From NCBI RefSeq assembly GCF_018476525.1, contig NZ_JAHCST010000007.1:124001-188000 (forward strand): a DNA stretch of 64,000 bases. The letters are read 5' to 3'. This document shows positions 3,915 through 7,483 of this stretch, piece after piece; position 1 is the first letter of the stretch; each line of letters begins with the position of its first letter. The notes under the pieces are model-generated. The model was not told the DNA's origin. It made no database searches and was given only the letters and a program-made list of their open reading frames with translations. Source of the DNA: Acrocarpospora catenulata. Lineage in GTDB: Bacteria; Actinomycetota; Actinomycetes; Streptosporangiales; Streptosporangiaceae. The position numbers and the translations under genes were made by a program.

Positions 3915-3949
3915 GTCGGGACGACAGGATTTGAACCTGCGACCCCTTG
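3915..3949. repeat. Att site: duplicated tRNA-Pro 3' end (distal)
   Basis: These 35 bases are identical to 7409-7443, which hold the 3' end, T-arm and part of the anticodon arm of the intact tRNA-Pro gene. After 3949 the copies diverge. A tRNA 3' fragment repeated directly on the far side of integrase-bearing DNA is the hallmark of tyrosine-integrase insertion into a tRNA gene, so this is the distal attachment site of the 3.95-7.41 kb island. Confidence 0.85.
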
Positions 3950-4044: not shown

Positions 4045-5247
4045 ATGGGCGTCGTCACGCAGTTGGTCACCCAGATGTTCGCAGATGCCAGAAATCTAGC
4101 AAATCACCCTGAACTGTCAGTGGCGTTGCGTACGCTCCCAAACGTGGACGATCTCTTAAGGGAAGCTCTGGAGTTACAGGCATGGTGGTCTTCACAGAAC
4201 ACCCCCCAGATGCAGCGTCGCGGCCGCATCATCCGCACTGAGCTTGCAACCCTGCTCCGGGAGCACTCCAGTCAGATGGCCGCCGCCATGCGCATCCCCT
4301 TGCAGGACCTGGGCGTGCAAGGGAAGGACGGTACAGGACTGAAAACCGAGATCCCCTGGACAAGAGTCCACTCCCGCGAGCGCTCGCCGAGTGCCACCAT
4401 CGGTTGGTACGTGGTCTATCTCTTCAGCGCCAAGGGCGATCGGGTCTATCTATCGCTCAACCAGGGGACCACCGTTTGGAACGGCGGAGAGTTCGTTCCA
4501 AGAGCCCCGGAGGAGCTGAGGGCGCGGGTAGAGTGGGCGCGGCCTCTTATCCATCAAGAGATTGCTGGACGCGATGACTTGAAAGACCAGATTAACCTTG
4601 ACGCCCTCAAAAGCCACCTAGGGCGGGGCTATGAGGCTGGAAATGTGCTGGCCATCGAGTACGAGCGTTCCAACATTCCGAGCCCAGACTTGCTTATCCG
4701 AGACCTCGTCTTTATGGCCGGTCTTCTTGGCGTTCTGTATCGAACCGAAGAATCAGTACCACATGTTCCAGGAAACTTGGCACCCGAGATCATCGAGATT
4801 CAGGAAGTCGCAGCCTTAACGGCTGGCCGGCGGAGTTCGATGCCTATGGGACAGGGGTTCCGGCTAACCACCGACGAAAAGCGCGCCGTAGAACGGCATA
4901 GCGTACGGATGGCCAGTGACTATTTCGCCGCGCAAGGATGGTCGGTAAAGGACGTAGGGGATAAAGAATCTTACGACCTACTCCTGACTAAGGGCGCACA
5001 GCAACTACACGCCGAAGTAAAAGGTACGACCTCAAGTGGCACACAGGTTGTGCTGACTCGTTCTGAAGTCGAGACGCAACGGCGACTTGCTCCCCATAAC
5101 GCGTTGGTCGTCGTGCATTCCATCGATCTGGACCGCAAGGCAGATCCTCCGTGTGCAAGTGGTGGAGTCCTGCAATGTGTTTCTCCATGGGATATAGCCG
5201 ACGATGATCTACTCGTCGTCTCGTACTTTTACCAGACAGGCTTGTAA
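4045..5247 (+). CDS. MrcB-N/DUF3883 predicted modification-dependent nuclease
   Basis: The frame is open from 3931, but its first codons are translated tRNA sequence, so I place the start at ATG 4045 (400 aa); ATG 4075 is an alternative. The middle part (TIGWYVVYLFSAKGDRVYLSLNQGTT, about residues 110-140) resembles the MrcB N-terminal domain (DUF3578), which reads modified DNA in McrBC-type systems. The C-terminal quarter is DUF3883-like with a PD-(D/E)xK arrangement: Asp near 310 (SYDLLL) and Glu-x-Lys near 324-326 (HAEVKGTT). There is no GTPase domain and no methylase nearby. G+C is clearly lower than in the flanking genes and the gene lies inside the tRNA island. Defence by cutting modified DNA is inferred. 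Confidence 0.7.
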   Translation: MGVVTQLVTQMFADARNLANHPELSVALRTLPNVDDLLREALELQAWWSSQNTPQMQRRGRIIRTELATLLREHSSQMAAAMRIPLQDLGVQGKDGTGLKTEIPWTRVHSRERSPSATIGWYVVYLFSAKGDRVYLSLNQGTTVWNGGEFVPRAPEELRARVEWARPLIHQEIAGRDDLKDQINLDALKSHLGRGYEAGNVLAIEYERSNIPSPDLLIRDLVFMAGLLGVLYRTEESVPHVPGNLAPEIIEIQEVAALTAGRRSSMPMGQGFRLTTDEKRAVERHSVRMASDYFAAQGWSVKDVGDKESYDLLLTKGAQQLHAEVKGTTSSGTQVVLTRSEVETQRRLAPHNALVVVHSIDLDRKADPPCASGGVLQCVSPWDIADDDLLVVSYFYQTGL

Positions 5248-5373: not shown

Positions 5374-6084
5374 ATGTACATGTTCCCGGTGGAGTTCAGC
5401 CGCGTCGTGCCCGCCTCAGGCAACCTGGCCGTCTGCGGGCAGCAGTTCTGGCTCGGCACCCACCGGGCCGGTCTGACGCTCACGCTGCGGGCCGATACTG
5501 GCACCGTCGAACTGCTGGCCGCCGGGGCCCGAATCAAGAAGGTGCCGTCTCGACTCACCATCCAGCATCTGCGGCAGTTGATCGCCGGGGGCGGCACCCG
5601 TATCCAGCCCGCGCCCGGACCGGCCCGTCCCGGCGCTGACGGGGCGGTCGAGGTGGAGCGGACCGTCAACGCCTCCGATCTGGTCTCCCTCGGTGGCCGG
5701 CAATATCCGGTCGGCTCCCCTTTCGCCGGACGCCGGCTGACCGTCCGCCTCGATGGCGCCGTGCTGCACCTGAGTGACGGTTCCACGCTGCTGCGCACCC
5801 TGCCCAACCCGCTCACCGGTGATGAGGCGGCCCGCCTGCGCGATGCGCGCCCCGGCCAGCCGCCGAACCGGTGCGGGTGCAGCGGCGGGTCAGCAGCCGC
5901 GGCTGGATCGCCATCGCCGGGCAGCGCATCGGCGTCGGGGATCGGTCATGCTGGAGCGACCGTGACCGTCGAGGAGGCCGACGGGATCTTCCGCATCACC
6001 TGCGCCGGCCAGGTCATCGCCGAGGTAGCTCGCACCACCACCCAAACGATCGCCCGGTTCAAAGTCCGCAAACCCCAGCGCTAA
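5374..6084 (+). pseudogene. IS481-type transposase relic (C-terminal region, frameshifted)
   Basis: The frame begins VVPASGNLAVCGQQFWLG and ends VTVEEADGIFRI...TQTIARFKVRKPQ. This matches, from memory, the beta-rich C-terminal tail of actinobacterial IS481-type transposases, with the repeated VERTVNA-x-x-LVSLGGRQYPVG unit. The DDE catalytic part that should precede it is absent. Between about 5868 and 5938 the family-like sequence (VRVQRRVSSRGWIAIAGQRIGVG) lies in another frame, then returns to the first, so two compensating indels have scrambled about 24 residues. I read this as a dead insertion-sequence fragment carried in the island. Confidence 0.65.
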
Positions 6085-6118: not shown

Positions 6119-6604
6119 ATGGATCCGGTGAAGCTGCAGCAGGCTCTGGACGATGTCTTCGACCAGGCCCTGCTCCGCCACGGCTTCACGGACTACATGC
6201 GCGACTACCAGCTCGTGATCCACGCGACCGCCGACCCTCGAAGCGGGATCGCGCCGGCGACGCTGCGCTACCTGTTCCGCTACTGCGTGCAGGCCGACTG
6301 CACAACAACCGTGTCGGCCGACATATGGCGCGAGTCCATCGATGATCGGCTCATCACCTACCAAACCGGCGTCGACCTCGACGGATACGTCTGGGGCGTC
6401 AACTGGCAGCTGCTTTATCCCGGGGCCACGCTCGTCACCGACTCGCCGACCGCCGAGAACTGGGCCGCAGCTGTCGGCATCGAGTTCCACGAGGTCCGGA
6501 TCCAGACCAACGCCCACGATCTGACCCTGGTCTTCTCCGACCTGCAGATCGAAGAACTCCCGTCCGAATGGCAGGGACCGGACCACAAGTTTCCGATTCA
6601 ATAG
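6119..6604 (+). CDS. YxiG-like domain protein
   Basis: This is a 161-aa soluble protein starting MDPVKLQQALDDVFDQALLRHGFTDYMRDYQLVIHATADP. It has the internal block LRYLFRYCVQADCTTTVSADIW and the C-terminal HEVRIQTNAHDLTLVFSDLQI. The pattern is that of the small YxiG-like family found in actinomycetes and in Bacillus subtilis, whose function is unknown (family placed from memory). The frame is intact and spans the family's usual length, so it may be the second functional cargo gene of the island. It begins 34 bp after the transposase relic, with only a weak ribosome binding site visible. Confidence 0.7.
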   Translation: MDPVKLQQALDDVFDQALLRHGFTDYMRDYQLVIHATADPRSGIAPATLRYLFRYCVQADCTTTVSADIWRESIDDRLITYQTGVDLDGYVWGVNWQLLYPGATLVTDSPTAENWAAAVGIEFHEVRIQTNAHDLTLVFSDLQIEELPSEWQGPDHKFPIQ

Positions 6605-6635: not shown

Positions 6636-7262
6636 GTGTCACCCGCCTCCCGAGCCGAATCTGTCGCACGGGTCCTGAGGCCTGACACAGATGAGATGCA
6701 CGCCGTCATGGTCCCTGACAGCGGGCAGCCCTCCATGCAGTGCATCGAGTACTCGGACAGCGACGTGGCCATCTTCGCGGCCTGCACCGCAGCACGGATC
6801 GGCGAGGTCTCCGGAGTGCGGGTCCGCGACATCAACCCCGACACCTGGATCTGGACAGTGCGCTGGCAGACCACACCCGGCCCTGGCGAGCTCATGGACA
6901 AAGGCACCAGAGGCAAGCCTGCCCGGAAGGTGCCGCTGATCGTCGAGGTTCGCGACCTGGTCGCCCGGCGCCTGGAACTGCTCGGCTCCAACCCGGATGC
7001 CCGTCTGTTCACCGGTCCTCAAGGCGGACGCATCAGCACCGCGGTGCTGCGCGATGCCACCCATTGGGATGGGGTGGTGACCAAGCTGGGGTACGAGCAC
7101 CTGCGGGGTCACGATCTCCGTCACACCGGGCTGACCTGGATGGCCGATGCTGGTGTACCGGTGCACGTGTTACGCAAGATCGCGGATCACGGGTCGCTGA
7201 CCACGACACAGCGTTACCTTCACCTCGATGTCCGATCGCTGACCGATTCCGGACTGCGCTGA
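6636..7262 (+). pseudogene. Tyrosine integrase, N-terminally truncated
   Basis: Only the catalytic domain of a phage/AICE-type tyrosine recombinase remains. The active-site set is complete: Arg54 (AARIGE), a Lys in DKGTRGKPARK (about 89-98), His159/Arg162 (HDLRHT), His185 and Tyr194 (TQRYLH). The arm- and core-binding domains (about 180 residues) are missing. Family-like tail sequence (ALSAHLAAGVRQLVP) continues in another frame to 7339, so a single-base indel near 7250 also cuts the C terminus. The gene ends about 150 bp from the intact tRNA-Pro att site, the normal position for the integrase. It is probably inactive. Confidence 0.8.

Positions 7263-7408: not shown

Positions 7409-7483
<75 letters not shown>

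Follow-up and report, generated by a model that had tools for sequence, protein, structure and literature searches.

Can a modified-DNA reader of the McrB type work with a nuclease in a single polypeptide, with no GTPase motor between them? The question is raised by the gene at positions 4045-5247 of the forward strand in the stretch of Acrocarpospora catenulata DNA analysed here (64,000 nucleotides; hereafter the window). Its 400-residue product joins, as the original prediction had it, an MrcB_N domain (residues 64-226; Pfam E 1.2e-33, 116.7 bits, cut-off 25) to a NOV_C domain (residues 283-360; E 5.7e-9, 36.4 bits, cut-off 22.1). Both lie above the curated cut-offs, and no further Pfam domain was matched. 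Plasmid matches to the two parts are annotated, where annotated at all, as DUF3578 for the N-terminal and DUF3883 for the C-terminal part, DUF3883 being the same domain as NOV_C. The open frame is full length and retains all invariant residues of the family. The start codon is uncertain on sequence grounds, because many homologues begin near query residues 33-38, with GTG codons at 4120 and 4144 as possible alternatives.

The gene is also set apart from its surroundings, as had been claimed, by its G+C content of 56.9% against 70.2% for the window, the lowest among 1256 sliding windows of 1203 bp. In the host genome (10.29 Mb, 181 contigs) it is the only convincing copy, the next matches having E values of 0.34 and 0.47, and its product is the sole MrcB_N match. 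Neither the missing methylase partner nor the missing McrBC subunits of the original prediction turned up: the chain contains no AAA domain, and none of the eight neighbouring ORFs scanned gave a methylase or McrC-like match. PADLOC 2.0.0 returned for the window protein only weak Cas11-like matches (0.0012 and 0.0087) over a stretch of fewer than 50 residues, which we judged to be chance. A phmmer search against PDB sequences yielded only a chance N-methyltransferase match (E 0.56) and was uninformative, so that a fold search was needed.

An AlphaFold2 model was therefore built on an alignment of 37 sequences (A3), comprising the window protein and those 36 of 47 long-frame homologous loci that have an ATG or GTG start near the match. 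The model reached a pLDDT of 86.8 and a pTM of 0.64, with a weak stretch at residues 261-272 between the domains, and it bears out both predicted halves, an McrB-N-like N-terminal and a PD-(D/E)xK-like C-terminal one. The sole Foldseek match of the model below 0.001 was, for the reader domain (MrcB_N, DUF3578 or ADAM; positions 4234-4722, forward strand), E. coli McrB-N on DNA (3ssc_A, E 8.3e-4); 3ssd and Hjc resolvases came next in the list. VIA-align, used as a second look at Foldseek's list with rows within 1 Z counted as tied, superimposed E. coli McrB-N/DNA structures on residues 31-241 with Z up to 10.9 (6gce_A, an McrB-N complex; 142 residues, rmsd 3.6). Its top row was the DUF1054-like protein 2a8e (Z 11.3), tied with McrB-N; we know of no modified-base role for 2a8e, and since it has an McrB-N-like fold too, a matching fold is by itself no proof that 5mC is read. 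Both 2a8e and the DUF1054 protein 3mqz, which resemble the McrB-N-like half (model residues 31-244) with Z of 11.3 and 10.0, may on the basis of this model be unrecognised relatives of a modified-base reader.

Profile comparison with E. coli McrB by sequence only is weak (hhalign probability 10.9%, E 0.0028). Two alignments nevertheless place T97, W105, Y122 and L126 of the window protein opposite McrB Y41, W49, Y64 and L68, of which W49 takes part in the base pocket. W105 (4357-4359), Y122 (4408-4410) and L126 (4420-4422), which delimit the predicted flipped-base pocket stretch at 4357-4422 on the forward strand, are identical in all 37 aligned members, and position 97 holds nine different residues among them. 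According to a study of the E. coli protein, Y64 and L68 touch the methyl group of the flipped methylcytosine and Y41 is not conserved (PMC3874153). Invariant contact residues combined with a free gap filler are the pattern expected of one chemistry read in varied sequence contexts.

The nuclease half (NOV_C/DUF3883, residues 275-400, positions 4867-5244, forward strand) carries the motif D311...E324xK326 at 4975-5022. The original prediction had pointed to an Asp near residue 310 and a Glu/Lys pair near 324-326 as catalytic; D311 (4975-4977), E324 (5014-5016) and K326 (5020-5022) prove invariant in 37 of 37 aligned members, as they do, together with the pocket residues, in an alignment of twelve full-length sequences. 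Over residues 275-400 the nearest solved folds in VIA-align are the SPARDA nuclease XauSPARDA (Z 10.4) and the archaeal resolvase Hjc (1gef, Z 10.2), both of which have other partners and another biology; no Argonaute-like match was found in the ORFs scanned beside the window gene. The core also matches DpnI (4kyw, Z 8.4), a single-chain, m6A-dependent enzyme with a PD-(D/E)xK domain and a winged helix, from which the window protein differs by its reader and, we expect, by the modified base recognised.

The resemblance to SPARDA nuclease subunits (Z 8.4-10.4), thought to degrade DNA indiscriminately and so to kill or arrest the cell, would suit an abortive-infection effector, in which the reader senses modified phage DNA and the nuclease then destroys DNA without discrimination. 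The occurrence of the same nuclease core on other N-terminal parts (loci L079-L081 and L084-L086) would fit this too. We regard such a role as unlikely, however: Hjc and DpnI, which are precise cutters, match the nuclease half too, and no regulator- or antitoxin-like family recurs among the neighbours.

Modification-dependent cutting, the reading that we prefer, draws its best evidence from what appears by sequence to be a reader exchange, a single case beside tRNA-Pro. In three loci, all from one genus (g46, Nocardiopsis included), the downstream genes are shared and a tRNA-Pro(CGG) stands 1.1-2.1 kb away from the nuclease gene. One of them, L067, a member of alignment A1, encodes an MrcB_N-DUF3883 protein; L070 (8046-9278) encodes a hybrid of RE_AspBHI_N (1.3e-50) and NOV_C; and L071 retains a broken nuclease part only. 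Identity between the DNA of L067 and L070 falls from 85.0% in the 1.1 kb nearest the tRNA to 80.8% in the 3 kb that follow and 73.3% beyond, and is 75.6% over 332 bp of the nuclease part. At the far flank, L070 and L071 share their sequence, whereas L067 had no match to L070 in the stretch compared, so that only the tRNA side supports placing L067 and L070 at one site. In a nuclease tree, L070 is nested in a MrcB_N-type clade (99/95), with two Nocardiopsis proteins of 74-75% identity as its nearest relatives (93/72). The N-terminal domain of AspBHI is described as an SRA-like reader that flips 5mC in the site 5'-YS(mC)NS-3' (PMC4499157). That one cutter should carry either of two unrelated modified-cytosine readers is difficult to account for if modified cytosine does not direct the cutting. 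The sensor half seems to be exchangeable.

Both folds, the invariant pocket, the lack of a partner and the AspBHI-type sister support the original prediction of a compact restriction factor that may be termed type IV-like, and from sequence and model the window protein is probably a compact bacterial defence enzyme. It combines three features of a type IV enzyme, namely a predicted reader, a predicted intact nuclease site and no methyltransferase partner among the neighbours scanned. We thus consider it likely that the protein is a single-polypeptide, NTP-independent, modification-dependent restriction nuclease. In such an enzyme, the McrB-type domain would flip a modified cytosine (5mC, 5hmC or N4mC) out of invading DNA into the W105/Y122/L126 pocket, with the sequence context perhaps influenced by the variable residue 97, and the PD-(D/E)xK domain (D311, E324, K326) would cut close by, probably once two subunits have paired. 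The enzyme would require neither a methylase nor a GTPase as partner, and its gene would spread on its own as cargo at tRNA 3' ends. Binding of modified cytosine, cutting, NTP independence, dimerisation and defence against phage or methylated foreign DNA are what we infer for it.

Is the gene conserved beyond its host? At 1e-5, the window protein found matches in 13 of 150 genomes of its family, 40 of 345 of its order and 28 of 394 of its class, many of them to a single domain. A search of genome contigs with the single protein gave no loci, whereas the alignment as query gave 56. These are spread over Actinobacteria (Actinomadura, Streptomyces, Nocardiopsis, Lentzea, Saccharothrix, Jiangella and others) and also include Rhizobium, Mesorhizobium, Brevundimonas, Sphingomonas, Comamonas and Stenotrophomonas. 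Both Pfam domains are present in all 37 members of A3, which come from Actinomycetota and Pseudomonadota. Since NCBIfam models matched none of these 37 and PADLOC gave no convincing match for the window protein, present defence annotation probably misses the family. The protein has no match among 50,697 phage records searched; 18 plasmid records match, none over 80% of the query, and viral contigs provided eight loci, five near full length. Three of the near-full-length homologues (L239-L241) lie on IMG/VR contigs of 51-67 kb.

Homologues in G287, G179, G088 and one of the two copies in G505 are broken by frameshifts or stops, and the integrase adjoining the window gene is N-terminally truncated, which could mean that the gene itself is a decayed or non-functional island passenger. 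We hold this to be very improbable, because the window gene is full length with every invariant residue kept, and 47 of the 56 loci have a single open frame across both domains, matching the query from residue 60 at the latest to at least residue 385. Furthermore, whole-gene dN/dS is below 1 (0.13-0.54) in all ten diverged pairs compared; these pairs share sequences, and dS exceeds 1.5 for L096/L099 and for L096 with the window gene. Two pairs, L098/L100 and L135/L149, were left out as too close; for the reader part of L135/L149 alone, dN/dS is 1.15, from very few changes.

Among 139 nearest-neighbour proteins of 36 loci, chosen by a simple script, no Pfam family occurred more than twice in the top 25 of 166 families listed, and the commonest PADLOC models (UvrD/GajB helicases, RTasHel and REase_II) likewise reached 2 of 139; by this test there is no obligate partner. 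Candidates were considered and dropped. An aldo/keto-reductase-like ORF (named by eye) was seen at only 3 of 18 loci, one of them the window; the remaining clusters in that set comprise two to four loci each, mostly of one genus. Among the 56 loci, clusters of up to ten reflect mostly Lentzea synteny, and the few cross-genus clusters cover three or four loci at varied distances.

Cytosine methylation bears on the target. At a threshold of 1e-15, a C5-cytosine methylase is found in 37 of 48 carrier genomes (the 47 genomes of the loci and the host's own), whereas in a sample of the class 187 of 388 genomes have one; the two sets are unmatched by taxon and genome size, and the carriers include Pseudomonadota and many large genomes. 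Avoidance of 5mC methylases was therefore rejected as a signature of carriers. The host genome by itself would agree with such avoidance: at the same threshold it has none, its only match covering 53 positions at 4.9e-4. A 5mC nuclease is expected to be dangerous to a host that makes 5mC, and these counts speak against the idea that most carriers have a 5mC nuclease free of context: since 5mC is not avoided genome-wide, the target must be limited by context or be another modification. The methylases do not refute our reading, because E. coli K-12 keeps Dcm alongside McrBC, the contexts of the two being different.

The same frequent methylases would also be compatible with a sequence- or structure-specific nuclease, type II-like or junction-resolving, to which the McrB-N-like domain would be merely an aid in DNA binding or base flipping. 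The nuclease half is indeed like Holliday-junction resolvases, and an archaeal survey treats DUF3883 as a group of presumed type II REases (PMC10609329). Yet no neighbour family, hence no methylase family, exceeds 2 of 139 nearest neighbours, the residues aligned with methyl-touching ones are invariant, and the other reader found next to tRNA-Pro(CGG) is of the AspBHI type, which reads 5mC. A nuclease of this sort appears to us quite unlikely, and we retain the modification-dependent enzyme as the working model.

How did the gene reach its present position? The original prediction placed it as lone cargo in a tRNA island. The island is real: a 35-bp copy of the tRNA-Pro 3' end at 3915-3949 exactly matches 7409-7443 within an intact tRNA-Pro(GGG) (7409-7483, reverse strand, ARAGORN), the target of integration, and 0.00 occurrences of the 30-base core of this repeat are expected in shuffled sequence. 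The two att repeats delimit a 3.5-kb element with the nuclease gene at the distal repeat and, at the tRNA, a tyrosine integrase remnant (6636-7262, forward strand, 208 residues; Phage_integrase 1.7e-17, profile positions 18-169 of 172) of which only the catalytic part is left. Between them lie an ORF with a Mu-transposase C-terminal-domain match (5374-6084, E 1.6e-8) and a YxiG-like ORF (6119-6604, E 1.7e-77), both on the forward strand and thought to be outside the system. As the island carries these three further ORFs, the nuclease gene is not strictly its sole cargo. The ORF at 5374-6084 stands alone, with the C-terminal domain of a Mu transposase only and no full transposase.

The tRNA-Pro(GGG) and the genes on its 5' side are kept in all five genomes of the genus, the host's included, and the 3' side varies. 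In two of the four congeners (G106 and G079), islands of ~8.9 and ~16.8 kb are bounded by a repeat of the tRNA end, and from this variation and these island sizes the site can be regarded as an integration hotspot. One congener island at the same tRNA-Pro contains a sequence (L171, 9194-9876) whose DNA is 74% identical to the integrase remnant of the window and which abuts its own att copy.

The association with tRNA genes extends to other lineages. Fifty of the 56 loci were scanned for tRNAs, and in 15 of these a tRNA lies within 500 bp of the nuclease gene. The controls were other predicted genes of these loci, lying over 3 kb away, of which 12 of 486 are as close to a tRNA (Fisher p 3e-10, relatedness ignored). 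By inspection, these 15 loci represent 7-8 distinct tRNA sites (Arg-CCG, Arg-ACG, Leu-UAA, Leu-GAG at one or two sites, Ala-GGC, Tyr and Thr), and the gene is on the 3' side of the tRNA in 14. The idea that att repeats surround every tRNA-adjacent copy did not hold. Of 28 loci (30 tRNAs) checked, the window among them, just three have repeats that span the gene, namely the window (35 bp), L123 (49 bp) and L106 (45 bp), so most tRNA-side copies have no visible att pair in the stretch examined; short repeats at L104 (13 bp) and L124 (17 bp) were judged to be chance.

The tRNA-Leu(UAA) site was compared in 24 Lentzea genomes. The nuclease gene adjoins the tRNA in eight, in three of which it lies alone in the 1388-1422 bp between the tRNA and the conserved next gene. 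The slot is empty in two genomes (217 and 373 bp), and in seven it holds other DNA, the nuclease gene being absent. In the remaining seven, the next gene lay outside the stretch reached, one contig ending after 605 bases. G712 and G714, which belong to these seven, carry the nuclease gene farther from the tRNA (loci L110 and L112); in G714, the tRNA 3' end recurs as a 50-bp copy ~17.5 kb from the tRNA and ~430 bp from the nuclease gene, as if a later island had integrated between the two. At this slot in G756 and G712 (L214 and L216), a 646-residue serine-recombinase-like ORF, named by eye, overlaps the end of the tRNA. In two Lentzea genomes lacking the gene, the gap is equally large, ~1.4 kb (L224, 540-1909; L234, 505-1907; coordinates oriented so that the tRNA reads forward), and each contains another small ORF, of 190 and 233 residues respectively, suggesting that the slot is a micro-hotspot for one-gene inserts.

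In terms of known systems, the window protein has in common with E. coli McrBC the reader fold and the aligned pocket residues W, Y and L, but differs in that its nuclease is of another family and resides in the same chain. An AAA+ GTPase in the chain and McrC among the eight ORFs scanned were looked for and not found, so it is not a member of McrBC; the AAA domain is found in E. coli McrB and in L082, where MrcB_N is joined to an AAA+ domain. In the AspBHI/LpnPI/MspJI family, the nuclease has a PD-(D/E)xK-type fold. The likeness lies in a single chain with an N-terminal modified-cytosine reader, described in the source cited above (PMC4499157), and a C-terminal cutter; in the window protein, by contrast, the reader is McrB-type rather than SRA-like and the nuclease is NOV_C/DUF3883. 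By analogy, the window protein would work like the AspBHI design equipped with McrB's reader. Other McrB homologues are reported to carry EVE in place of MrcB_N/DUF3578 (PMC7641849). DUF3883 itself has been termed a novel REase domain fused to an SNF2 helicase in restriction-modification operons (PMC3710099); that is a multi-gene system, and a McrB-type reader is unmentioned in the passage describing it. The literature searched, which mostly leaves out subscription papers, contained no description of an MrcB_N-DUF3883 fusion, and we make no claim to priority. An architecture-guided MDRE screen was reportedly carried out in 2019.

The McrB reader is known chiefly as the leading part of a large machine of two proteins driven by GTP. 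If our reading is true, the same reader is here coupled straight to a small nuclease, giving a simple motor-free finder of modified cytosine, and the natural swap of readers next to a single tRNA would illustrate how restriction is retargeted in bacteria. We tentatively extend this, as a proposal we find possible rather than likely, to a widespread and as yet unnamed class of one-gene, motor-free restriction enzymes that combine DUF3883 with exchangeable McrB- or AspBHI-type readers at tRNA 3' slots, in some lineages as bare single-gene inserts with neither an integrase nor an att duplication remaining.

Other combinations of these domains were seen in passing. NOV_C/DUF3883-type nucleases with long N-terminal regions are encoded at L079 (8734-9726), L080 (8598-9818), L081 (8059-9258), L084 (8590-10050), L085 (5254-6327) and L086 (8619-9554). 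Pfam at E 0.1 gave no match to the N-terminal regions of L079, L080, L084 and L086, and those of all six are candidate new readers or sensors. In L087 (8456-9532) and L091 (8175-9251), MrcB_N is followed by another C-terminal part with a D...ExK-like motif, recognised by eye, which in L087 has at most a weak Pfam match to XisH (0.042).
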